From Chloroflexota bacterium (GTDB lineage: Bacteria; Chloroflexota; Dehalococcoidia; Lucifugimonadales; Australimonadaceae): DNA of 64,000 nt. This document shows positions 4,400-55,706 of this stretch, piece by piece. Where the stretch lies: positions 72,014 through 136,013 of the forward strand of contig VXQP01000081.1 in NCBI GenBank assembly GCA_009838965.1, written 5' to 3'. The position numbers were made by a program, and so were the translations under genes. The stretch's first letter is position 1, and every line of letters starts with the position of its first letter. The notes beneath the pieces were generated by a model, which was not told the origin of the DNA, made no database searches, and saw only the letters and a program-made list of their open reading frames with translations.

Positions 4400-6888
4400 A
4401 CGCCGCCCTCTCTGAACGCCCGGCACTGACGGCAGCACTCCTGGCAGGCGGCTCACTGGTGGCGCTTGCGTTGCTGTGGGGCACGGACAGCCTGCTCTCC
4501 CAGTTGGTGCGGCTGGACCTGAGCTTCCTGGCTCTGCCCGTGACGTTGTGCGGGGCCCTGCTGGCTCTCGGCAGGTTTGCCCTGTGGTTGCGCAACACGG
4601 AGTTCGCCGATCGCGTGACCCTGCGGGCGTGGACGCGCCGGGAGGCTGTGCGCCCGCTGCCGCTGGCTGCTGTGCTCCCGGTAGCTCATCGGGTGCTGAC
4701 GGACCTGGGCTGGACGGCGCTGGGGCTGGGACTGTTGTCGTCCGTATCGGCATTGCCGGGCGTGGTATCCGGGCACCCGTGGGCGCCGGACATCGCATCC
4801 CTGGCGCCATACCTGCGCGGTTTCGACTCGCTCGCAGTGTGGAGCATATTGCTCCTGGCTCCGTTCGTCGCCGCTAGGGCAGTTGCAGTGGTGCGCCCGC
4901 ACGTGGGGACGGTCGTCGGCTTCCCACGGACCCACCTGGGGGCTTTCGTTGCTGCCTACGCCCTCCTAGGGATAGACGGCGCGCTCTCCGCTGCCTTCGC
5001 CCTTGGTGGGGCATGGGCGTTGGTTGCGTCCAGCCTCGCGCTGGGATTGTCCTATGTCGCCTCGGCCATCCGGCGCGCCATGGCATTGAAGCCCGCAGAG
5101 CGCCTGCTGGACCTCCGCAAGGCGCTCCTCGTCACCGAGGTCGCATGGCTCGTTGCGTTGTGGGCAGCCGTCACTGCCTTGGCCCTCGCGGCGGAGAGCA
5201 CGTCCGCGAGCGCTGGGGCAGTGGGTCCAGACTCCGTGGACACATCGTACCTGGCAGTGCTTTACTCCCTGTCGGTTGTGCAGGTACTGGCTGCGTTACT
5301 CCCCTTTGCACTGGTTCACTTTGCCGGAGTGCTCCGGCCCAGTGTTGCCCGCATCCTGGGCACTCCCATCGGGCACCTCGCATTGCTGGCGGTCGTGTAC
5401 GTTGTGTTCTCCGGCAGCGGTGTGCTCTCGACGGCGTTTGCGGTTGACGTCTCCGGGATGCTCACTGCGCTCATCGCTGCATCAGTCCTCTCCTACGCGG
5501 CGATGGTGCTGCGCAACGTGGCGATGCTCGACGTCCCGGAGCGTTATGCGCTGCTGACGGCGAACGGATCGAGGGCACTGAACGCACTGGCCGTGGCCGC
5601 AGCGCTGGCGCTGGTCGTCGGGACTGCACTCGCGCACCTTCCTGTCGCCAACGCGGTGCTCCTGGACCGACCGGAAACGAGAGACCTCGGAGAAGACTTC
5701 CTGCCCTTCCTTGGAGGGTTCTACGAAGCCCGGCACTCCATCGCCTGGTTGTCGTTCACGGCAGTCGCGATGTTCCTCCTGCCGCGGGTACTGAGTGGGC
5801 AGCCCTTCCTGCGCTACCGGGCCATCCTATCCGCAGTGAGTTACTTTGCCGTGGGATGTTTCACTTGGCTTACGGCATCCGGCCTGTCCGCGTTCGGACA
5901 CGGCTTCACCTTTGGCGGCGCCATCACCGCGGCAGGCATGTTCTCCCTGGCGCTGGCCCGGTTGGCGCCGTACGCCTCCGCCTCCTCCAACCCCGCGGTG
6001 GCCGACATTGCCGGGTGGCTCGCAGCATCCCAGGTCCGTGGCTTCATGGCCGGGGCAGCCGTTGCCTTCTACGTGCTGCTGCTTCGACCCGTCGTCTACG
6101 AGATGCTGTGGCTTGCCGCCCTCTACGAGTACATCGCGCTGCTGGTCCTGCTCCTCGCCGTGCTCATGAACGTGGTCAACAGGATGCGCGTCGTCGCTAA
6201 TACACCGGAGGCTGCGGAGCCCGGTTGGGCCGACTGGTCTCATCACCGACAGGTCCTCGAAAGCAAGGCGGACCCGCGGGCCGCGTTGACCGACGTGATG
6301 CGACAGCGGTTCGTGGACCGCGGTGATTGGAGGCCCCTGTGGGTGTACCTGCTGGAACTGCTCTATCGAAGCGAGGCTTCCCTGGACGCCATGGTGGCTG
6401 TCTGCCGGTCCCTTCGCCGCGGGGCGGTCACGCCCTTGGCGTGGAACATCCTGGGCCGGAACCGCAGGGCGTCAACGAGAACAGCCGCTCTGGAACATGC
6501 CCTGGACACCGCGGGCTGGGCGCTGGCCTCTTCGACGCCGCAGCTCGAACTAGTAAGTGAGGAGGACGCGCGGAGAGCGGGCGCGCTATACATCGACAGA
6601 AGGACGGACCCGGAGCCTCTGGCCGTGGCCCTTATCGTCGCCCACTGCCAGAGGGGGGATGATCCTCAGGAGGCTGTTGACCGCTGGTTCTCGCTGTTGG
6701 ACACGCCGGACCCGTTTCTGGAGTGGCTCACTCGGCGGTGGGGCAGATCGGACACGAGGGTCGGAACTCCGCTGCGCCGCCAGGGCTTGGTCAATGAGGC
6801 GATCGCCTCGCTCTTCGAGGACGCGACGCCTCCGGAGGCTGTTCGGTCGAGAGGCCCGGCTGCGAGCTACGAGAGGAGCCTTCCGTGA
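4396..6888 (+). CDS. Large polytopic membrane protein of MoxR operon, unknown function
   Basis: This protein of about 830 residues has roughly a dozen hydrophobic segments over residues 10-590 and a soluble C-terminal domain of about 230 residues. I recognise no family. The ORF track starts at ATG 4369, but GTG 4396 is preferred: it overlaps the upstream stop as GTGA and lies seven bases after GGAGG. The resulting N-terminus runs straight into the first hydrophobic helix. The translational coupling puts it in the same envelope operon as the transglutaminase fusion and the MoxR ATPase. A membrane scaffold for that system is a context-based inference only. Confidence 0.75.
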   Translation: MNAALSERPALTAALLAGGSLVALALLWGTDSLLSQLVRLDLSFLALPVTLCGALLALGRFALWLRNTEFADRVTLRAWTRREAVRPLPLAAVLPVAHRVLTDLGWTALGLGLLSSVSALPGVVSGHPWAPDIASLAPYLRGFDSLAVWSILLLAPFVAARAVAVVRPHVGTVVGFPRTHLGAFVAAYALLGIDGALSAAFALGGAWALVASSLALGLSYVASAIRRAMALKPAERLLDLRKALLVTEVAWLVALWAAVTALALAAESTSASAGAVGPDSVDTSYLAVLYSLSVVQVLAALLPFALVHFAGVLRPSVARILGTPIGHLALLAVVYVVFSGSGVLSTAFAVDVSGMLTALIAASVLSYAAMVLRNVAMLDVPERYALLTANGSRALNALAVAAALALVVGTALAHLPVANAVLLDRPETRDLGEDFLPFLGGFYEARHSIAWLSFTAVAMFLLPRVLSGQPFLRYRAILSAVSYFAVGCFTWLTASGLSAFGHGFTFGGAITAAGMFSLALARLAPYASASSNPAVADIAGWLAASQVRGFMAGAAVAFYVLLLRPVVYEMLWLAALYEYIALLVLLLAVLMNVVNRMRVVANTPEAAEPGWADWSHHRQVLESKADPRAALTDVMRQRFVDRGDWRPLWVYLLELLYRSEASLDAMVAVCRSLRRGAVTPLAWNILGRNRRASTRTAALEHALDTAGWALASSTPQLELVSEEDARRAGALYIDRRTDPEPLAVALIVAHCQRGDDPQEAVDRWFSLLDTPDPFLEWLTRRWGRSDTRVGTPLRRQGLVNEAIASLFEDATPPEAVRSRGPAASYERSLP

Positions 6889-6891
6889 CCC

Positions 6892-6939
6892 ATGGACGAA
6901 ACCGGGATGCGCGCGCACTGGCCTCATGATTACCTGTAA
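6892..6939 (+). CDS. Possible 15-aa leader peptide
   Basis: A micro-ORF in the gap before moxR encodes MDETGMRAHWPHDYL. It begins four bases after the stop of the preceding membrane protein. Its TAA stop lies inside the TAAGGAGG ribosome-binding site of the next micro-ORF. It has no clear Shine-Dalgarno site at ideal spacing and no known relative, so it may be chance. It is recorded because two such frames sit in tandem. Confidence 0.2.
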   Translation: MDETGMRAHWPHDYL

Positions 6940-6950
6940 GGAGGATGGCT

Positions 6951-7004
6951 ATGCTATTGAGAACGATGCTGATCGATGACGGGGCGGTGCCCACCTATGA
7001 ATGA
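6951..7004 (+). CDS. Possible 17-aa leader peptide coupled to moxR
   Basis: ATG 6951 lies six bases after AAGGAGG, the best ribosome-binding site in the interval, and encodes MLLRTMLIDDGAVPTYE. Its stop (7002-7004) overlaps the ATG of moxR at 6997, which has only a weak site of its own. Translating the micro-ORF would deliver ribosomes to the moxR start. It could also be a chance frame using moxR's ribosome-binding region. Confidence 0.35.
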   Translation: MLLRTMLIDDGAVPTYE

Positions 7005-7968
7005 GAAAGAGCTGGAAGAGGCCCGTCTATCCTGCGAGCAGATTATCGACCGGGTCGCCGAAGCCTTCGTCGGCAATCGCTTGCTGCTGCGAAAGCTCCT
7101 CGCGGCGGCGTTGGCGAACGGCCACGTGCTCTTTGAAGACTTTCCCGGCCTGGGGAAGACGCTCCTGGCCAAGGTGTTCGCGCGGGCGATCGGAGGAGAC
7201 ACCAAGCGCGTTCAGTTCACGCCGGACCTGCTCCCGTCTGACATTCTGGGGATGAACGTGTGGAGGCAGAAGGACTCGACATTCCAGATGATGCCGGGCC
7301 CCGTGTTCACCAACGTGCTTCTGGCCGATGAGATCAACCGGGCCCCGCCGAAGACCCAGTCCGCCCTCCTGGAAGCCATGGAGGAGCGCCAGGTCACGAT
7401 CGACGGCGCGACGCTGCGCCTCGAGTTCCCCTTCGTGGTCATCGCAACGCAGAACCCCATCGAACAGGAGGGCACGTATCCACTTCCGGAAGCCCAGTTG
7501 GACCGCTTCCTGCTCAAGCTGTCCGCCGGATATCCGGCCAACGCGGCATTGGAGAACGACATTCTCCTGAGGCGCATCCATTGGCAGAAGGATGACCCCA
7601 CTGCGGACATTGAGCCGGCCGTCAACGTGCGCCGCTTCGTCGAACTGCAACGGTTCGTGGAGACCGGCGTCTACACTGACCGGCTCATCGTGGACTACAT
7701 CACGCAGTTGGTCAGACTCTCCCGCGAACACGCAAGGGTAGCGGTCGGCGTCAGTCCGAGAGGAGGTCTGGCCCTGCTCAGGGCATCACGGGCGATGGCC
7801 CTGATTCACGGCAGGGACTTCGTCGTTCCAGACGACGTCAAGCTACTGGTCCCTGACGTGCTCGCTCATCGCATCATTCTGAACATAGAGGACACGCTGG
7901 AGGGCGTTCGTGGCGGCCTCGTCGTCGAGGAGGTCCTGTCGCAGGTGCCCGTGCCCGGCGAGGCATGA
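6997..7968 (+). CDS. moxR: MoxR-family AAA+ ATPase
   Basis: This is a MoxR-type AAA+ ATPase of about 323 residues, a cytoplasmic chaperone-like motor that usually partners with VWA/DUF58 proteins. Walker A (GLGKT, residues 51-55), Walker B (LLADEINRAPPKTQ) and sensor 1 (VIATQNPIEQEG) are intact, as is the C-terminal lid motif SPRGGLALLRA. The ORF track begins at 6976. The start at 6997 is chosen because the protein then opens at MNEKELEE and overlaps an upstream micro-ORF with a strong ribosome-binding site. The next gene starts 12 bases after the stop. The moxR-DUF58-transglutaminase grouping is a known conserved arrangement. Confidence 0.93.
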   Translation: MNEKELEEARLSCEQIIDRVAEAFVGNRLLLRKLLAAALANGHVLFEDFPGLGKTLLAKVFARAIGGDTKRVQFTPDLLPSDILGMNVWRQKDSTFQMMPGPVFTNVLLADEINRAPPKTQSALLEAMEERQVTIDGATLRLEFPFVVIATQNPIEQEGTYPLPEAQLDRFLLKLSAGYPANAALENDILLRRIHWQKDDPTADIEPAVNVRRFVELQRFVETGVYTDRLIVDYITQLVRLSREHARVAVGVSPRGGLALLRASRAMALIHGRDFVVPDDVKLLVPDVLAHRIILNIEDTLEGVRGGLVVEEVLSQVPVPGEA

Positions 7969-7980
7969 GTTTGTGACGAA

Positions 7981-9312
7981 GTGAGGTACCAGCCGTCGCA
8001 ATTGAGTTGGATCGCCATCGCCCTGGTCCTCTTGGTGGCAGGGCTCATCCTGGGCAACCTCGTCCTGCTGGCCGGAGCGGTCTTCGTTCTGGTCTCAGCC
8101 CTGTTGTCCACGGCCATCCCCCCGCCGTCCGGCATAGCCGTGACCCGGAGCCTGGCGAAGGTCGCGTGCTGGGTTGGGGACACGTTGACCGTGGAGCGGC
8201 GGCTGACGGCCCGTCACGGTACTGGCGCGATCTTCGTGCATGATGATCTTCCTCCGGAGGCCCGGGTGGTGAGCGGAAGCAACCTGCGCGTCGTGTGGAA
8301 ATGGCCGGGGAGCAAGGCCGCGGACATCTCATACCGCGTGCAGTTCTCCAAGCGGGGACAGTACGCCCTACAGGAAACCGAGTGGGAATCCCGCGCACCG
8401 TTCGGCGTTGACCAGGGCGTGTCCGCTTCGTCCGGCCCCCCGTTCCAGGTCTCCGTGGTGCCCAGGATACGCAGCATCACCCGTCTGAACGCGGTCCGTG
8501 GCGTAGCCAGGCACGGCCGATACCTGGGCGACCTCTCCAGAACGGGAGCGGCCACGGACGAGTTCCGGGAACTCCGGCCCTACCAACCGGGCGACCCCTT
8601 CAAGCGCATCAACTGGAAGGCCAGCGCGCGGGGGATCAGGGCGGACAATCTCCCGCTGGTGAACGACGTTGAGCCGGAGACGAAGAAGGGAGTCTGGATC
8701 TTCCTGGATATGGCGGACTACATGGACGTGGGCGTGCCATTGTCCAATCCGTTGGAGAACACTGTGGAAGCGTCCGGCACGCTGGCACAGTACTACCTCG
8801 CACAGGGGTCAACGCTCGGCGCCTACGCCTACAACAGCTACGACGGCAGGGGCGAGTTGCTGACGCCCGAAGCAGGGAAACGCCAGTTCAACCGGCTCAT
8901 CCAGATGCTGGCCGGCCTGAAGCCGGGCCCGCCCGAGGAAGACCTGCTGCTGGCGGTGGAACGATGCAAGAGCTTCCTCCTCCGCCTGGAGCCGGCCGTG
9001 TATGTCATCACCCGGCTGGATGTCCACTACGACAGGCCCGGGGAAGCGCCGGGTTCTTTCGACCGCTTCAAGACGGCGATCACACGCCTTGCGTCGCTGG
9101 GGACGCTATCAGGCTGGAACAATCCTGTGCGAGTGGTGCACGTGGACCCTCAGGGGTCTCCTGAGGCGGCGCAGGGATTGGGGTTGACCAGATGGGAAAC
9201 AAGGTTGGTCGCCAAGGACCTTCGTGACGCGGGCGCGTCAGTCATCGAGTGGGAGCCCTCCCGGGAAGAGTTCACGTCAGTGTTGGTGCGACATGTCGAA
9301 GCCTATCGGTAG
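7981..9312 (+). CDS. DUF58 domain-containing protein
   Basis: A 443-residue protein with two N-terminal hydrophobic segments (about residues 10-40), a beta-rich region, and the DUF58 signature RPYQPGDPFKRINWKASAR near residue 200. A degenerate VWA-like stretch (WIFLDMADYMD) follows; the metal-binding DxSxS motif is not intact. The start is GTG 7981, since no other start codon lies between the moxR stop and this codon in frame. DUF58 proteins are standard partners of MoxR ATPases in envelope processes. The gene overlaps the next by 20 bases, which suggests coupling. Confidence 0.92.
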   Translation: MRYQPSQLSWIAIALVLLVAGLILGNLVLLAGAVFVLVSALLSTAIPPPSGIAVTRSLAKVACWVGDTLTVERRLTARHGTGAIFVHDDLPPEARVVSGSNLRVVWKWPGSKAADISYRVQFSKRGQYALQETEWESRAPFGVDQGVSASSGPPFQVSVVPRIRSITRLNAVRGVARHGRYLGDLSRTGAATDEFRELRPYQPGDPFKRINWKASARGIRADNLPLVNDVEPETKKGVWIFLDMADYMDVGVPLSNPLENTVEASGTLAQYYLAQGSTLGAYAYNSYDGRGELLTPEAGKRQFNRLIQMLAGLKPGPPEEDLLLAVERCKSFLLRLEPAVYVITRLDVHYDRPGEAPGSFDRFKTAITRLASLGTLSGWNNPVRVVHVDPQGSPEAAQGLGLTRWETRLVAKDLRDAGASVIEWEPSREEFTSVLVRHVEAYR

Positions 9313-10042
9313 AGCGGACTGGCGCGATGGAAGCGCGAGGTCCGCTGCGGCGGAGTCGTTAGTGCTGTCCATCCTGCTGCTGCTCGCCGCCTACGTGTCT
9401 TGGGACATGGGCTTCGTTCTGAACGTGCGCGTGACCTCATGGGTGGAGAGGGCGGATGAGTTGGTGTTTCACTTCGTCCCCTGGCAACCCGTTCTGGCAG
9501 TAGGAGCGGGCCTCGCGGCGTATTGGGCGCTTCAGGCCTTGGGCCGCCACCGCCTCGCATTCTGGCTGATGGCGCTTGCGGTTGCCGTGCCTCACGTCCT
9601 GCCAGCCTGGTCCCACAACCGCATCGGATGGCATGAGCTACTGGAGTTCCAGGAAGGGCTCGTAGATGAGCGCTCCGTCTACGGGGACATGACACTCTTT
9701 GTCGTGTGCCTGGTCGGACTCGTTGCGCTGCACCGCCTCATCGGGATCAAGCGGCTGGAACGCCTGATGCGGTTGCAAGGGGTGGGCCCACTGGAGAGGC
9801 GCTCTATCATTACGTACGAGAACCTCATGCTCATTGGACTGATCGTAGCCGGGCTGCTGGTGGCTGGCCTGATGGTAATGGTTGCAGCAGTGTTGGAGAG
9901 GTACGACGGAGTATTGGGTGGGTCGTCCCTGGCCATAGCGATAGTCGGAGGAGGAGCGGCCCTCCTTTTCGCTCTCACACTCCTGCTCTGGTTCGGAGGC
10001 CGACGGGACGCTGACGAGGAAGGCTCGTCTGGCATAGCCTAG
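9293..10042 (+). CDS. Four-helix membrane protein, unknown
   Basis: About 249 residues with clear hydrophobic segments near residues 20-40, 60-100, 135-150 and 175-235 and a short charged C-terminus. The ORF track start at 9224 runs deep into DUF58; ATG 9293 (MSKPIGRADWRDG) gives a compact cytoplasmic N-terminus before the first helix. It is the last gene of the MoxR operon. Its TAG stop shares bases with the stop of the convergent lipoprotein gene (CTAG, 10039-10042). No family was recognised. Confidence 0.75.
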   Translation: MSKPIGRADWRDGSARSAAAESLVLSILLLLAAYVSWDMGFVLNVRVTSWVERADELVFHFVPWQPVLAVGAGLAAYWALQALGRHRLAFWLMALAVAVPHVLPAWSHNRIGWHELLEFQEGLVDERSVYGDMTLFVVCLVGLVALHRLIGIKRLERLMRLQGVGPLERRSIITYENLMLIGLIVAGLLVAGLMVMVAAVLERYDGVLGGSSLAIAIVGGGAALLFALTLLLWFGGRRDADEEGSSGIA

Positions 10043-11094
10043 GACGTAGGCGGAACGCCGGCTTCGAGTAAATCGTCGAACCGTTGTGGGTCCTGCCTGG
10101 CAGCCTCGTAGAGGGCCATCACCGATGCGGCCTCCGCGTCGTCAAGGCCGTCAACGAACCAGGCCTGAGTGACCAGTCGGTCGAATTGGTCGACGGTGCC
10201 ACGGTTTCTCGCCAGTATCGCCAGCGAGGTCAGGATCTGACGGCCGGCGTCGACGTTGCGCTCCGCGAACGTGGCGGCCGTCAACGCCGCTTCCATGCTG
10301 CGGTCTGCGATATGGACCCAGTTCTGTGCCATTCGACCATCGCCGAGCACGCTCCCTGCAATCCGGGGAAGGTCCTGTAGTACCGGCACTAGAGCGGGGT
10401 TGTCGTCAGCGGCGCCAGCTATGAGGACGAGCACCTCGAGATGCGCCTCCCGCAGGTCGATTTGGTTTGGGTTGGCTGTGAGCCAGTAGCGGCCCTGAAC
10501 GACGCGTGCATGGGGGTCGGCATAGACACGGTCCCTCGCGTACCAGAGCATCCGTATCTCATCGACACGGATGCCGTCGTTGACCCATGGGACTAGGGCA
10601 ACCGCGTCGCCGAGATGGCGGTCCTTGACCCACGTCTTGACCAGCGCCGTAACCGCCTCGGCGTGCCATTCGTCCGGCGGGTCGGCGAACCATGGCACGA
10701 GTTGTGATAGCCGGTCGAAGGCTTGCTTCTCCCTGGACGTGGGCGTGGGCGTTGGGCTGGGCGTTGGAGTGAGACGCGGCGTGGGCGTAGGTGTTGGCCC
10801 GGGAGTCGGTGTGAAGGTGGGAATAGGAGTGGGCGTTGCCACAGGGATGGATGTTGGAGTGAGCGCGGGAGTGGGCGGCGGTATCAGCAGAGGAGACTGT
10901 CCAAAGATGCGCTGGTAGTCGTCCGAACGGGACGACGACTCCTCAGCGGTTGCGGTGGCCTCCACGGTCGCAGTGGCCCCAACCGCAGCGGTGGCCCCTG
11001 CATCCGGGTCGGGTGTAGGGGTCTCTGGATCAGACCTGCACGCGGCGAGCGCGAGTGCAAGGAGCACTAGAGCAAGCAGGGCGAGCGTTCGCAA
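10039..11094 (-). CDS. Lipoprotein with Pro-Thr linker, unknown function
   Basis: A secreted lipoprotein of about 351 residues. The signal peptide runs MRTLALLALVLLALALAAC with lipobox LAAC. The chosen TTG start at 11094 lies eight bases after GGAGG; the ORF-track start (TTG 11121) adds nine residues without a comparable site. After an Ala/Thr-rich stretch comes a Pro-Thr repeat linker (PTPTPTPRLTPTPSPTPTP). A helical domain of about 240 residues follows, which I do not recognise. It lies directly downstream of the aldolase gene on the same strand. The PT linker is typical of surface-displayed domains in Chloroflexota. Confidence 0.8.
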   Translation of the reverse strand: MRTLALLALVLLALALAACRSDPETPTPDPDAGATAAVGATATVEATATAEESSSRSDDYQRIFGQSPLLIPPPTPALTPTSIPVATPTPIPTFTPTPGPTPTPTPRLTPTPSPTPTPTSREKQAFDRLSQLVPWFADPPDEWHAEAVTALVKTWVKDRHLGDAVALVPWVNDGIRVDEIRMLWYARDRVYADPHARVVQGRYWLTANPNQIDLREAHLEVLVLIAGAADDNPALVPVLQDLPRIAGSVLGDGRMAQNWVHIADRSMEAALTAATFAERNVDAGRQILTSLAILARNRGTVDQFDRLVTQAWFVDGLDDAEAASVMALYEAARQDPQRFDDLLEAGVPPTS

Positions 11095-11892: not shown

Positions 11893-13518
11893 CTAGCGGT
11901 TCAACGCCGTCTCAGCCGACGTGATGAACTCCAGCAGCGCCGCCTGGCCCTCCTCGGTGGCGCGGCGGGCGCGCAGGATCGCGGGGCCGACTTCCTCCGG
12001 GTCCTCGACGCGCTCCGCCCATCCGCCCAGCGAGCGGGCCAGATCGGCGTAGTTGCCGCCCACGTCCCGTGTGCCGTACTTCTCGTGGGAGCCGACGAGC
12101 CGCCTCGTCTCGATGGCCATCGTCGAGTTGTTCGACACCATCGTGATGATCGGAATGCCGTTGCGCACGGCGGTCTCGAAGTCGAGGCCCGTCATGCCGA
12201 ACGCGGCGTCGCCTATCCAGTTGATGCAGACCTTGTCCGGTTCGGCGAGTTTGGCGCCCATCGCGAAGCCGAGGCCCGTGCCGAGCGCATGGGACTTGCC
12301 CCAGCCGATGTAGCTGCGCGGACCTGCTGACCGGTAGAACGGGACCATCTGGTCGCGCGGGCTGCCGGAGTCGTGGGTGACGATGGCCTCGTCTGCCTGG
12401 ATGGTGCGGTTCAGCTCCCAGACGACCCGGTACGGGTTGATGGGCGCGTCCTGCGATTCGAGTTTGCCGCGCCACTGCTCGACCCACGCGCCGTACATCG
12501 ACGCGACCTCCGCCTCGACCGTGGACCGCCGGCCCGCGTTCGCCCCACCCATGTCGCTGACAGCGTCGATGAGCTGAAGCATGCCCGGCTTCGCGTCCGC
12601 CAGCAGGGGGTGAGCGGCGGCGTAGTTCCTGTTCAGGTCCGCCTCGTCGTTGGTGAGCTGGATGATCGTCCGGCCCTCGGGCAGGGGCAGGTTCATCTGG
12701 TGCTTGGCCAGGCTCGCTCCCACCGCGAGGATGACGTCGGCCCGGTCCAGGAAACTCCGCACCATGGGCGAGGTCGACGTCGAGGCCGTGCCGATGGAGA
12801 GCGGGTGGGTCTCGGGGAACGCGCTCTTGCCGAGGAGCGTCGCCGCGACGGGTGCTCCCAGCATCTCGGCCAGCTCGACGACCTCGTCTGTCGCTCCGGC
12901 CCAGAGGACGCCCTGTCCGGCCAGTATCACCGGCGCGTTGGCGTTGGCAAGGGCGCGGGCGGCGCGCTCCACGTCTTGCGGGTCTGCGAGGGTGCGCGTC
13001 GACGTGACCGGTTCATAGCCCGTCTCGCCGATGTCCAGTTCGGCGACGTCGGTCGGCAGTTCGACCATCACGGGGCCCGGCCTGCCGTTGCGCAGCCGGG
13101 AGAAGGCGCGCCGCATCGCGTCGTCGGTCTGCTCGGGGACGTTGATGGTCTCGAGCCACTTGGTCACGTTGCGGTAGCCGCGCTCCGCCGTGAAGTAGCG
13201 GGGCCAGCCCTTGCGGTCGCGTGGGTACCCCGATGGCAGCACGAGGAGCGGCGACGAGTCCGCATAGGCCGTCGTCACCCCGGCGAACGCGTTCTCCGCG
13301 CCCGGCCCCGCCTGCATCGCGAACACCCCGATCTTCGAGCCGTTGCTGGCGCGGCTGAGACCGTCTGCCATACCGAGGCCGACACGCTCCTGGCGGCACA
13401 CGATGGGCCTGATGCCGGCGTCGGCAACGGCGTCGATCAGATCGGTCGTGGGATAGCAGAAGAGGTACTCGACCCCCTCCCGCTTCAGGATCTCAGCCAT
13501 CGCTTCCAGAGCCTTCAT
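11893..13518 (-). CDS. Thiamine diphosphate-dependent enzyme (acetolactate synthase-like)
   Basis: A ThDP enzyme of about 541 residues with PYR, central and PP domains. The catalytic Glu that activates ThDP is present in CRQERVGLGMADG, and the ThDP-Mg motif is GDAAFGMTGLDFE...SNN near residues 430-465. The start is ATG 13518 (MKALEAMAEIL) after AAGGAG; the ORF-track extension to 13599 has no support. It is co-transcribed with the HpcH aldolase and divergent from glycerate kinase. That context suggests 2-oxoacid or glyoxylate chemistry, but classical glyoxylate carboligase lacks this Glu, so Gcl identity is doubtful. Acetolactate synthase, oxalyl-CoA decarboxylase and phosphonopyruvate decarboxylase-like roles remain open. 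Confidence 0.88.
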   Translation of the reverse strand: MKALEAMAEILKREGVEYLFCYPTTDLIDAVADAGIRPIVCRQERVGLGMADGLSRASNGSKIGVFAMQAGPGAENAFAGVTTAYADSSPLLVLPSGYPRDRKGWPRYFTAERGYRNVTKWLETINVPEQTDDAMRRAFSRLRNGRPGPVMVELPTDVAELDIGETGYEPVTSTRTLADPQDVERAARALANANAPVILAGQGVLWAGATDEVVELAEMLGAPVAATLLGKSAFPETHPLSIGTASTSTSPMVRSFLDRADVILAVGASLAKHQMNLPLPEGRTIIQLTNDEADLNRNYAAAHPLLADAKPGMLQLIDAVSDMGGANAGRRSTVEAEVASMYGAWVEQWRGKLESQDAPINPYRVVWELNRTIQADEAIVTHDSGSPRDQMVPFYRSAGPRSYIGWGKSHALGTGLGFAMGAKLAEPDKVCINWIGDAAFGMTGLDFETAVRNGIPIITMVSNNSTMAIETRRLVGSHEKYGTRDVGGNYADLARSLGGWAERVEDPEEVGPAILRARRATEEGQAALLEFITSAETALNR

Positions 13519-46447: not shown

Positions 46448-47293
46448 TTACGTGTTATACCTCTTCAAGAGGAGAACCTCGTCGATCCCGTTGAGGAGTT
46501 CTCGTCGTGCTTCATTCGATAAGTTCGACAAATGCAGTTCTGCAATCTGATCGGGTCCTATCTTCTTCATTAGCTGTACAACTCCGTTCGGACTCAACCG
46601 GAATATGTCGCTGTCGAATGCTCGGTGGCAATACGCACAAAGGCCTATACCGTTGGCCGGGTTTGCGCGATTCTCGACATCATTAGCATAACCACTTAGG
46701 TGCGCTACATCTAACACTTCCCTCATGCGTGTTCCGCAGATTGCGCATTGATATCCTTGACGGCTAAGTACCGTCTCCTTGAATCGCTCAAGACCATGCC
46801 TCCTCTTGACAAATGACCATGCATCGAGAATTTCATATTCTGCTGGCTGAGGAGGGGTAATTGGAATACTATTCTGCCGATAGGCGAGTGTGAGGATTCG
46901 TTCATATAGTTCTTCATTCAAGGATGCTACTGAGCGGGACCAACCAAGCTGGTTGACATCAACTATTCCTAGTGCCAGCCTGTTCCGCTTTCCTTGCTTG
47001 CTAGTAGTGCGTATGTCGAACGGAGATGAATATTCTATGTAATCCCCGATTATTGCGGTGTATATTCTGCTAATCGCCCTGACCTCGGACTCCTGTTCGG
47101 TAGGTTGTCTCCACTGAAGATCTTCAACTATACCGTGTCCGGTGAACGCATAACCGCCGGATTTCTTGCTGAGATAGATGAATAAATCCCCCTGCTCAAC
47201 CCGAACTGAGTGCATGTTGTCATAGACATACGTGTGCCCTGGTCCTTCAGGATAGATAGGCGTGTCCGATTGTTTGAACATCCAATATGCCAT
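46448..47293 (-). CDS. HNH endonuclease with N-terminal EVE/PUA-like domain
   Basis: A 281-residue protein. The C-terminal HNH nuclease has a CxxC (183-186), the core REVLDVAHLSGY with His198, and CAYCHRAFD (Cys219, Cys222, His223), the zinc-supported HNH arrangement. The N-terminal 110 residues (MAYWMFKQ, GDLFIYLSKKSGGYAFTGHG) resemble EVE/PUA-like readers of modified bases, so a modification-dependent (type IV-like) restriction role is plausible. The resemblance is by eye. The gene is clearly AT-richer than its neighbours and stands alone between convergent and co-oriented genes, a sign of recent acquisition. Confidence 0.85.
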   Translation of the reverse strand: MAYWMFKQSDTPIYPEGPGHTYVYDNMHSVRVEQGDLFIYLSKKSGGYAFTGHGIVEDLQWRQPTEQESEVRAISRIYTAIIGDYIEYSSPFDIRTTSKQGKRNRLALGIVDVNQLGWSRSVASLNEELYERILTLAYRQNSIPITPPQPAEYEILDAWSFVKRRHGLERFKETVLSRQGYQCAICGTRMREVLDVAHLSGYANDVENRANPANGIGLCAYCHRAFDSDIFRLSPNGVVQLMKKIGPDQIAELHLSNLSNEARRELLNGIDEVLLLKRYNT

Positions 47294-51359: not shown

Positions 51360-51469
51360 TCTGTCGCATTAGTGACATCCGCTTATTGCGCCAACGATAC
51401 CTCTCTTCCTACCCTGTAGATGCGCGTCTGAAGACCCTGAACGCACGCAGATGGGAGGAGTGACCGGGA

Positions 51470-51976
51470 ATGAGCGGGAAAAGGCAGAAACAGATGAGGA
51501 AAGAGCAGCGGATGAGCAGTAATGAGCAATTGGGCTGCTCATCCGGAGCCCCACATTTACGAGTGGAGAACCACCCGGTGAGCAGAAATGAGCAGCAGTT
51601 CCCCCCGGAACTTTCCGATCGGCAGGTTTCCGCGCTCCCCTACCTCGCCGCTGCCGCCACCAACGAGGAGGGCGCGAGGATGGCGGCGATCAGCATCTCC
51701 ACGCTCACGCGCTGGCGGCAGGACTCCGTCTTCCGTGACGAACTCCGGAGGCTCCGCGAGGACGCGGCCAGTCTCGCCCATACGGAACTCAACGGCCTCG
51801 CCCTCAAGAGCATGGCGGCCCTCACCTCCCTGCTGGAAGACCCCAATCCCCGTGTTAGGGCACAGGCGGTACGCATCGCCCTCGATACCGGAGTGAGGGT
51901 AGGAGAAACCGCCCGGAACACCCGCCGTCTCAACCAGCTCCAGAAGGCCCTCACCCTCCTGAAGAACGTCAAGTAA
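51470..51976 (+). CDS. Phage-like HTH protein (terminase small subunit-like)
   Basis: A 168-residue protein. A basic N-terminus is followed by two near repeats of (M/V)S(S/R)NEQ. A helix-turn-helix-like segment, SDRQVSALPYLAAAATNEEG and ISISTLTRWRQDSVFRDELRR, resembles phage terminase small subunits and phBC6A51-type homeodomains. The rest is helical with a HEAT-like stretch (LLEDPNPRVRAQAVRIALD). The ATG follows GGGAGGAG. The DNA near its start carries repeated TGAGCA motifs. No other phage gene is nearby, so this may be a remnant or a regulator. The gene at 51988 follows 11 bases later. Confidence 0.65.
   Translation: MSGKRQKQMRKEQRMSSNEQLGCSSGAPHLRVENHPVSRNEQQFPPELSDRQVSALPYLAAAATNEEGARMAAISISTLTRWRQDSVFRDELRRLREDAASLAHTELNGLALKSMAALTSLLEDPNPRVRAQAVRIALDTGVRVGETARNTRRLNQLQKALTLLKNVK
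51513..51594 (+). repeat. TGAGCAG(T/A)AATGAGCA iterons
   Basis: TGAGCAGTAATGAGCA (51513-51528) recurs as TGAGCAGAAATGAGCA (51579-51594), 66 bases or 22 codons apart. Between them ATGAGCA-attgggc-TGCTCAT (51522-51542) is a perfect inverted repeat. All lie inside the N-terminal part of the HTH gene, so they may be DNA-binding sites for its product or a simple coding repeat. Confidence 0.5.
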
Positions 51977-51987
51977 GGAAGTGCACT

Positions 51988-52374
51988 ATGACGAACGCGA
52001 TTACCTCCCTCGAACGCTACCTCGTCTGTCAACTCGCTCAGGTAACCCTCTTCCCCATCGTCGAGGACTACGTCGATCGCTGGCGCGACGCGATGGAGAG
52101 CGGCAACCCCTTGCCCGATGTGTTGGACATCGTCGAAGCCGCCGCCAGGGAGGACGTCCCCATCCTCACCATCGCTTCCGTCGACCCCTACCTGCGGCAC
52201 TGCGCGAAGACTAGCCGTGTTCCCGACCCCGCCCGCGTCGTGACCGCCATCGTCCATGGCTATGCGGAAGTGCGCTTGGCTCATGGTAGGACCTGCCGTT
52301 GTCCCGCGCGCCAGCCCCTTGGAGAACCCCGCATCCTCCCCTCCGAACGCCTCGCCTTCTTCGATGATGTGTAA
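51988..52374 (+). CDS. Hypothetical protein of HTH pair
   Basis: A 128-residue protein with a mostly helical N-terminal 95 residues (SLERYLVCQLAQVTLFPIVED) and a short Cys/Pro-containing tail (HGRTCRCPARQPLGEPR). No family was recognised. The ATG has AAGGAAG upstream and lies 11 bases after the HTH gene, so the two form an operon. The stop lies a few bases before the end of the convergent SDR gene. A phage or plasmid-type accessory role is only suggested by the neighbour. Confidence 0.55.
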   Translation: MTNAITSLERYLVCQLAQVTLFPIVEDYVDRWRDAMESGNPLPDVLDIVEAAAREDVPILTIASVDPYLRHCAKTSRVPDPARVVTAIVHGYAEVRLAHGRTCRCPARQPLGEPRILPSERLAFFDDV

Positions 52375-53332: not shown

Positions 53333-53423
53333 GTGCTTGTTCTCCTTCTAGGTCGTGACGTTCGGGGCGTCCTCTGTTTTACCACGAGCGGGGGATGTGT
53401 GTGGGCCATAGAGGAGCTTCTAG

Positions 53424-54347
53424 GTGAGAATTGATGACACGAGCAGGTTGTCTAGTTGGCGACACGCTCTGCATACTCGTGTAGTTCGGATACCCAGTGA
53501 GGTTGAGCGCATGCGGAAGACACTGAAATCTACCCCCAAGGGGCTGGCCCTCCAAGATGAATATGGACGTCCGATGGGATTTCCCACTCGCTTGGACTAC
53601 ATTGACCACTTGAAGACGCACGACTTGATTTCAAGCGAATCTGACTTTGTCGCCGATGACAGGCTGACCGAGGCCGTCTACTTGGACTGGCTTCTGCGTC
53701 CCCAGGTTGGATGCGTCTTTGCTCAGGTATTGGCTCGCCCTGTCAATCGCTCTAGAGTAAGGACTGTGGTCGCCCGTGGTGCTTCTGGTGCGGGAGCGCC
53801 CAATGAACTAGCGTTTCAGATCGCTAGCTTGGTGGAGGAATGCGTCCAAGATGCATCTACTGAGGCCCTAAGCGTGTTGATGCCGCAGGTGCTTGATCCG
53901 GAGAACCTTACCGACCTCGTTTGGGCACTAGGTCATCAACCGCGCTGGACTATTGAGCAAGAGCGGCTCTGGCGCAGGAGGCTGATGCTCATTGGCCTTC
54001 GAGCTGAGATTGCGGACAACGTGGTGGCAGAGACGCTTGGCATGGGGCCCTTCAACTTCTTTCCAACTACGCGTCAGTGCCCAGTAACGAGCTTGGAGAT
54101 TCGAACCAAGACTAGGCGAGCAAAGCGAAGCCATCTATCGAAAACGCATCTAGCCGCCCACCTTGCTGACTTACCTATCGACGAGGATGTGCTAAGGCCA
54201 GCAGAATTTGGTGTTCGCTTCAAGAGATTCACTCCGTGGTTGAAAAGGCGAATACTTGGACAGCAAGGAGATTCCCGTGCAAAGGCTGGTGTAACCTACT
54301 CTGTCCCGGTGGCCATCTGGTCTTCCCTTAAGATGAGTGACCCATAG
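53424..54347 (+). CDS. Hypothetical protein of AT-richer cassette
   Basis: A 307-residue basic, soluble protein of no family I recognise. It has KSTPKGLALQDEYGRPMGFP near the N-terminus, a helical middle (ELAFQIASLVEECVQ) and a basic C-terminal third (RTKTRRAKRSHLSKTHLA), suggesting nucleic-acid contact. The start is GTG 53424, seven bases after GAGGAG. Base composition is clearly lower in GC than the core genes. The last 20 bases overlap the convergent DHH gene. With DUF488 and DHH it forms a compact accessory unit. Confidence 0.65.
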   Translation: MRIDDTSRLSSWRHALHTRVVRIPSEVERMRKTLKSTPKGLALQDEYGRPMGFPTRLDYIDHLKTHDLISSESDFVADDRLTEAVYLDWLLRPQVGCVFAQVLARPVNRSRVRTVVARGASGAGAPNELAFQIASLVEECVQDASTEALSVLMPQVLDPENLTDLVWALGHQPRWTIEQERLWRRRLMLIGLRAEIADNVVAETLGMGPFNFFPTTRQCPVTSLEIRTKTRRAKRSHLSKTHLAAHLADLPIDEDVLRPAEFGVRFKRFTPWLKRRILGQQGDSRAKAGVTYSVPVAIWSSLKMSDP

Positions 54348-55017
54348 CATGTTCGAGTAGCGGACTAGCCTCACTGGAAAGACAGCGAAAACCACGGACA
54401 GAGCGGTGCATCGCGCAGTCCTCGTCGCCGAGTGCCTCAAAGAAATCCCACTGCCGTTCTTCAATTAGCTTAAGCAGTATTTCGCCAGCAGTTCCTCTAA
54501 CGTGTGCGGCTGCGCGTTTGACACCGAGTGCTCGCTTCCTCAATGTTGGCGTCGAAACGATCCTTGTCGGCGAACCGTCGCACAGGGCTGCCACTTCCAT
54601 AAGGTCCGGGTTCGGGATGCCCAAGCAACAATCATAGGGGTCGTCTACTTCAAACAACAAGACATTGTCCCGTGGACATTCAGGCTGGGTAAAGGGATGG
54701 TGGTCTATTGCGATGAATTGTTTCTTGTCTTCTCGATCAGACACTTGCAGGAGCCGAGACAGAGATTCTGAGGGATTTCTAAATCTAAAGGCAATGTCTA
54801 CGAAGACTATCAAGTCATACTCATGCAGGTCAAACTCATGTAGATGCTCCCAGAATCTATAGTTACGCGTTTTGGGAGATACCAAAGTCGTAACAGCCAA
54901 TCCTCTCTCTACCAAGTAGTGGCGAGTCTGCTCAGCAGCCAAGTGGCCATCCGCATCTGCGTGGCCAAACACTATTGCTGAACTGCAAGACGTTGGAATG
55001 CTGATGTTGTTTGTCAA
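54328..55017 (-). CDS. DHH-superfamily phosphoesterase-like protein
   Basis: A 229-residue protein with DHH-family metal motifs: FGHADADGH (His19, Asp21, Asp23), LIVFVDIAF (Asp74) and IAIDHHPF (Asp105-His106-His107). These bind Mn2+ in RecJ, NrnA and cyclic-di-AMP phosphodiesterases. It is shorter than those enzymes and has no clear DHHA1 domain. ATG 55017 overlaps the DUF488 stop by four bases (ATGA). Possible substrates are short oligonucleotides or cyclic dinucleotides; the small size makes a dedicated accessory nuclease likely. GC is low, as in its neighbours. Confidence 0.82.
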   Translation of the reverse strand: MTNNISIPTSCSSAIVFGHADADGHLAAEQTRHYLVERGLAVTTLVSPKTRNYRFWEHLHEFDLHEYDLIVFVDIAFRFRNPSESLSRLLQVSDREDKKQFIAIDHHPFTQPECPRDNVLLFEVDDPYDCCLGIPNPDLMEVAALCDGSPTRIVSTPTLRKRALGVKRAAAHVRGTAGEILLKLIEERQWDFFEALGDEDCAMHRSVRGFRCLSSEASPLLEHAMGHSS

Positions 55018-55568
55018 CTACGTCTTCCGCGTCGAATTCGTTTGGGCGATACCCATGTGAGGTCTTCCCCGTCTGATTCAAAGAGCGGCATACGTAGGTC
55101 CACTCGTTCAACCATTTGGGTAGCGTCTTGGACTGTGCCATCACGCCGAATGTGCAAGACCTCCAAATCCCGTTCTACTAGCATCCGCGCCAAGAGAGGA
55201 TGACGATGGCATAGTGCGGGGTCTTCCTCGGTACACATCAATGCGAGCCGTTGCTGCTCGCTTGCATCAACAACCTGGCCAATGCCACGACGAAATTCTG
55301 GGAGCGCAGCCACTCGCTCGTATGCCACTCGGCCACCCACATAGAACTCGTCAGGATTCGGATGGCCTCCAAGGCTGTCTCCCAGATAGAGATACCTGAT
55401 GCCAAGACGTGCAAGTCGATCGTCGAGCGGCTCACGATTGAAGTGACGAAAGCGTGAATACGGGTTCGACCTGACATCTACAAGGCACTCGATATTGTGC
55501 TTTGTCAGTAGCGCAAAAAACTCAGCCGCCGGCTGATTCGAATGCCCAATGGTGAATACCGTTGGCAT
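55014..55568 (-). CDS. DUF488 family protein
   Basis: A 184-residue DUF488 protein. Motifs are VFTIGHSNQPAAEFFALL, ECLVDVRSNPYSRF and MCTEEDPALCHRH (the C...CHR signature). DUF488 has no firmly established biochemical role; it appears in accessory and defence-type loci. It is translationally coupled to the DHH gene. It lies in the AT-richer cassette. The first codon is ATG 55568. Confidence 0.9.
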   Translation of the reverse strand: MPTVFTIGHSNQPAAEFFALLTKHNIECLVDVRSNPYSRFRHFNREPLDDRLARLGIRYLYLGDSLGGHPNPDEFYVGGRVAYERVAALPEFRRGIGQVVDASEQQRLALMCTEEDPALCHRHPLLARMLVERDLEVLHIRRDGTVQDATQMVERVDLRMPLFESDGEDLTWVSPKRIRRGRRS

Positions 55569-55651
55569 GACCCGCCCTCATTAGGTGGTGATGCAGTCTA
55601 GTGGTGGTAGGTAGGCTCCTCAATGAGATAGGGGTGACAGTTGTGACGTAG

Positions 55652-55668
55652 GAGGCGCATTACGCCTC
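55652..55668. promoter_or_regulatory. Short perfect hairpin GAGGCG-CATTA-CGCCTC
   Basis: GAGGCG and CGCCTC are separated by five bases in the gap between divergent DUF488 and GNAT genes. It may be a promoter-region element or a weak structural repeat. Evidence is the palindrome alone. Confidence 0.3.
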
Positions 55669-55688
55669 GGCGCCCAGTGGTCGGCTAT

Positions 55689-55706
55689 CCTGTACGTGAG
55701 TACAGG
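55689..55706. promoter_or_regulatory. Palindrome CCTGTAC-GTGA-GTACAGG before GNAT gene
   Basis: A perfect 7-bp inverted repeat with a four-base loop lies seven bases before ATG 55714. A protein bound here would cover the ribosome-binding region or promoter of the acetyltransferase gene. As RNA it is a hairpin that could mask the start. Confidence 0.45.

Follow-up and report, generated by a model that had tools for sequence, protein, structure and literature searches.

A conserved, horizontally moving cassette of DUF488, a stand-alone DHH phosphoesterase and an undescribed protein, a possible defence module of Chloroflexota

PDC-M45 is a module catalogued in PADLOC, which elsewhere consists of DuOB and two DUF488 proteins. 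On the Allochromatium, Agrobacterium and Rhodovastum plasmids these are encoded by an operon in the order DuOB-DUF488-DUF488, and Rhodothermus contains DuOB and two DUF488 genes in another gene order. CRISPR or CBASS genes adjoin three of these four loci. PDC-S28, another PADLOC entry, is a one-gene helicase. In PADLOC, both PDC-M45 and PDC-S28 are themselves no more than candidates.

The locus described here lies in a Chloroflexota genome, within a 64,000-nucleotide stretch of contig VXQP01000081.1 that is called the window below. At 53511-55568 it contains a three-gene cassette, in which the genes for a DUF488 protein and a DHH phosphoesterase form one operon that converges with the gene for an undescribed protein, U. 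The cassette shares with PDC-M45 the DUF488-B component (PDC-M45B), the compact operon and the patchy presence on mobile DNA, but it has DHH and U where PDC-M45 has DuOB and another DUF488, U being encoded on the opposite strand. One component comes from a catalogued candidate module, while the remaining make-up is new. No description of DUF488 together with DHH was found in the literature searched, the scope of which took in few subscription papers. The first-pass annotation likewise knew of no described system with these three genes.

Open reading frames are present at 53424-54347 on the plus strand and at 54328-55017 and 55014-55568 on the minus strand, as the first-pass annotation had them, and its identification of DUF488 and DHH is borne out by Pfam, conserved motifs, a structural model and Foldseek. 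The DUF488 gene (55014-55568, minus strand) encodes 184 residues, and its stop overlaps the start of the DHH gene (54328-55017, minus strand, 229 residues) by four bases, at 55014-55017. The two genes had been described as translationally coupled through ATGA; the four-base overlap is there, but it reads TTGA with a TTG start for DHH, and on this sequence translational coupling is likely. The tail-to-tail overlap of U and DHH, given earlier as 20 bases, has exactly that length in the open-reading-frame coordinates (54328-54347). The lower GC content ascribed to all three genes is also found, at 0.53 for the cassette as opposed to 0.66 elsewhere in the window. GC at the third codon position is 0.51–0.57 in the cassette genes and 0.84–0.95 in the adjacent native genes. 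The 64 kb window contains two AT-rich stretches, one being the cassette and the other an HNH gene. No direct or inverted repeats were found at the cassette edges, and the flanks contain no integrase and no recognisable mobile-element boundary.

The DUF488 protein matches Pfam PF04343 (1.2e-20) and contains the conserved motif CxEExPxxCHR. It also matches PDC-M45B (2e-52), as do the DUF488 proteins of the two other known cassettes, in genomes G021 and G716 (2e-44 and 2e-46). It is the single DUF488 of the cassette, with no second one (PDC-M45C) found there, and neither U nor DHH matches DuOB (PF22557, PDC-M45A). DUF488 was detected by profile in 75 of the 242 genomes of the window's order. The best 28 non-cassette loci of the order contain a second DUF488 in 25 cases and DuOB in 21, and at none of them is DHH or U present within about 1.5 kb. 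In an unrooted tree, the three cassette DUF488 proteins form their own clade (support 94/91). The separate clade and the lack of DHH and U at these other loci indicate that the cassette is a distinct architecture built around a shared component. G021 has a second pair of DUF488 genes elsewhere, on contig 69.

Canonical DuOB-DUF488-DUF488 modules are widespread in the order (loci L056-L083), with DuOB in the first or the last position. Two Bosea plasmids (L087 and L086, at about 5700-10800) share a layout in which a single PDC-M45B-like DUF488 gene is followed by three hypothetical genes and by the gene of a cytosine methyltransferase. In L087, the four hypothetical genes that flank DUF488 have no PADLOC match. 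This locus is possibly another DUF488-containing system.

The DHH protein matches Pfam PF01368 at 5.9e-05 (23.8 bits), which is under the curated cut-off of 28.1, and a profile search against PDB chains gave no match, its sequence being too distant. Its motifs GHxDxDG, VDIAF and DHH are nevertheless intact, and the metal-binding residues Asp21, Asp23, Asp74 and Asp105-His106-His107 are invariant in the three homologues. The AlphaFold model, made with the three sequences, has a pLDDT of 80 and a pTM of 0.82. Foldseek matches it to RecJ (2e-06, probability 1.00), archaeal RecJ/Cdc45 and PAP phosphatase, with values from 2e-06 to 3e-05 and modest TM-scores of 0.35–0.5 when normalised by the query. 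The assignment to DHH therefore holds in spite of the sub-cut-off Pfam score. The predicted fold and the metal-binding motifs are those of RecJ, NrnA and PAP phosphatase, but while RecJ and NrnA (DHH-DHHA1) possess a DHHA1 domain, PF01368 is the sole domain detected in the 229 residues of the cassette protein, which stands alone, with neither DHHA1 nor OB domains. It is most naturally taken to be an active Mn-dependent phosphodiesterase or phosphatase.

U (53511-54347, plus strand) is a protein of 278 residues if it starts at ATG 53511, which is the probable start, since the homologues leave no room for the 29-residue extension to the alternative GTG at 53424. The latter has a good ribosome-binding site and would give 307 residues. 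Alignment of the three homologues reveals the conserved blocks AVYLDWL, QVGCVFAQ, LGMGPF and TSxEIRT. Searches of Pfam, NCBIfam, PHROGs and PADLOC, and of PDB by profile, returned nothing beyond chance level, and by the four family collections U is not a fragment of a known family; such a fragment would have counted against the original proposal. The AlphaFold model has low confidence (pLDDT 42). Weak matches to PlsX, Terminase_6, uL4m or 53BP1 (PDB) were judged to be due to chance, as they cover short stretches that differ each time. By eye, the layout of U was presumed to resemble that of YqcI/YcgG (PF08892); this relationship found no support, with an hhalign probability of 0.1% against four PF08892 members (from shallow profiles) and no Pfam match. 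U had been characterised as a basic protein, which is correct for the window (pI 9.4) and for G021, but the third homologue, from G716, has a pI of 6.6, so that basicity is not a defining trait.

The cassette is conserved. A DHH search among 39 relatives yielded a single further copy, that of G021, which shares the window's order but not its family, and the U profile, run against 393 genomes from the class, led to the third, in G716, from another order. The three known copies thus come from one class, and from three families and two orders. In comparison with the window, the G021 proteins are 61% (DUF488), 58% (DHH) and 63% (U) identical, and those of G716 45–48% (U 45%). All three copies have the DUF488-DHH pair convergent with U and overlapping ends, the U/DHH overlap measuring 20 bases in the window, 41 in G021 and about 50 in G716. 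The junction between DUF488 and DHH is an overlap in G021 and a five-base gap in G716. The co-occurrence of the three families, proposed as a check by the first-pass annotation, is observed in full, as all three genomes found to carry U or this type of DHH have both adjacent to DUF488 in the same layout, and they were never found apart. The differences between the U genes of the window and G021 at the three codon positions are 0.32/0.20/0.62, and those of DUF488 and DHH are similar, which indicates protein-level constraint on all three genes.

The cassette is also rare and has moved horizontally. DHH is present in only two of 250 genomes of the order, which makes vertical inheritance unlikely, and in one of 400 genomes sampled from the phylum. 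U was found in three of the 393 genomes of the class and in one of 400 of the phylum. A scan of genome contigs with the U and DHH alignments returned nothing, which is weak evidence of absence given the strict peptide patterns. The GC content of the three copies is 0.53, 0.52 and 0.58, as compared to 0.66–0.68 in the remaining sequence of their loci, and their surroundings differ, placing them at different chromosomal sites. It is close to established that the three genes are one mobile unit, moving between distantly related GC-rich bacteria.

In the window, the native flanks of the cassette are an epimerase on the left and a GNAT acetyltransferase and an MFS transporter on the right. The sister genomes G003 and G004, from the same genus, possess the flanking epimerase and transporter without the cassette; in G004 the site is occupied by a small GC-rich gene, cupin-like by eye. 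In the sister genome G005, the epimerase and the same acetyltransferase flank the gene of an 835-residue helicase with 52% GC, which matches PDC-S28 (E=3e-261). This protein is unrelated to the cassette proteins, and its gene is likewise AT-richer than the host. Comparison with G003, G004 and G005 delimits a variable stretch of 53404-55703 that contains the cassette, with the left homology limit agreeing within three bases (53401-53403). These differences, and PDC-S28 in G005, show that this is a site of exchange for foreign genes, among them another defence candidate. The cassette thus combines horizontal movement with a place in an exchange site that it shares with a defence candidate, PDC-S28 having candidate status only.

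The HNH gene (46448-47293, minus strand, GC 0.48) is located six kb from the cassette and encodes 281 residues with a C-terminal HNH domain (PF13391). It is replaced in G004 by a gene for a 229-residue PLD-like nuclease with zinc-ribbon-like cysteines. The N-terminus of the HNH protein has, by eye, the look of a modified-base reader, and at the corresponding place G005 has a shorter gap. The search for neighbouring defence genes that had been proposed earlier led to this nuclease and, in a sister genome, to PDC-S28 at the cassette site.

A 1 kb block at 51361-52368 contains a terminase small-subunit-like gene (51470-51976). It is inverted relative to G002, G003, G004 and G005, while its flanks keep their orientation, and no inverted repeats of at least 14 bases were found around it. 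In G021 (locus L006), a terminase small-subunit-like gene (12516-12887, plus strand; PHROG 3e-09) adjoins the cassette. A terminase large-subunit-like gene is located there at 329-1777 on the minus strand, 8.5 kb from the cassette. The terminase-like genes of G021 suggest a phage remnant.

With moderate confidence, the cassette is considered one functional, horizontally moving unit, whose most likely role is defence against mobile elements, as a compact module. This reading is based on the exchange site, on the presence of PDC-S28 at the same site, on a DUF488 of the PDC-M45B type and on the CRISPR or CBASS genes beside the canonical module. It is also favoured by the recurrence of the layout in three lineages, the rarity and low GC of the cassette, its absence from sister genomes, the separate DUF488 clade, the HNH gene with its PLD-like replacement in G004 and the terminase small-subunit-like gene beside the G021 copy. 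Counting against it are the neighbours of the G716 copy, which by eye resemble housekeeping genes, the plasmid-borne PDC-M45B-like DUF488 genes among metabolic or stress genes, the candidate status of PDC-M45 and PDC-S28, the small number of copies, all from one class, and the lack of an integrase or recognisable element boundary in the flanks. A more tentative proposal is that the genes constitute a new three-gene defence system, comprising a DUF488 enzyme, a stand-alone DHH nuclease and, on the opposite strand, U as the protein that would control or trigger them. DUF488 and DHH would be co-produced from their operon and may act in sequence on a nucleic acid or a nucleotide product, with DUF488 recognising the substrate or acting on it and the Mn-dependent DHH domain hydrolysing a phosphodiester. 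U would be the sensor or control partner, and DHH and U would stand in for the DuOB and second DUF488 of the other loci. The nucleotide-signalling role suggested by the first-pass annotation gained no specific support, whether through cyclic dinucleotides or oligonucleotides, the cassette containing no synthetase or cyclase.

Alternatively, the three genes might be cargo of a mobile element, such as a repair, replication or counter-defence module left by a phage or plasmid, that does not serve the host. The RecJ-like fold of DHH, the similar RecJ and DHH proteins of phages, and the terminase small-subunit-like genes found close to the cassette, in the window as well as in G021, point in this direction. 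However, no relative of U or DHH was found in 50,697 phage records, in 72,556 plasmid records or in five scans of viral contigs, sister genomes without the cassette possess the terminase-like block too, and the cassette site of G005 contains a different defence candidate. Cargo is an unlikely explanation.

It is improbable that the cassette is a toxin-antitoxin-like pair, in which U or the DUF488-DHH pair would harm the host without its partner, and addiction would keep the convergent genes linked. The obligate linkage of U to DUF488-DHH in all three copies, on opposite strands with overlapping ends, is in line with this, but the proteins, of 184–307 residues, are large for a typical pair, toxin and neutraliser would be on separate transcripts and not in the usual operon, and U matches no toxin family. 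An accessory nucleotide-metabolism or repair module that has no role in conflict and confers an occasional growth advantage would fit the PAP phosphatase found beside nucleases among the structural matches of DHH, as well as the two plasmid relatives, PDC-M45B-like DUF488 genes, that sit among metabolic or stress genes. The extreme patchiness, the foreign base composition and the exchange site shared with a defence candidate make such a module quite improbable. Chance adjacency of three unrelated genes, for which only the small number of copies speaks, has a negligible probability and is refuted by the recurrence of the same layout at 45–63% protein identity, at different sites in three families of two orders.

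If the cassette is a defence module, the DUF488 family would work with interchangeable partners, either DuOB together with another DUF488, or the pair of DHH and U. The chemistry of DUF488 would become testable through a partner of known class, the DHH phosphoesterase, and U would add a new protein family to the bacterial conflict systems.
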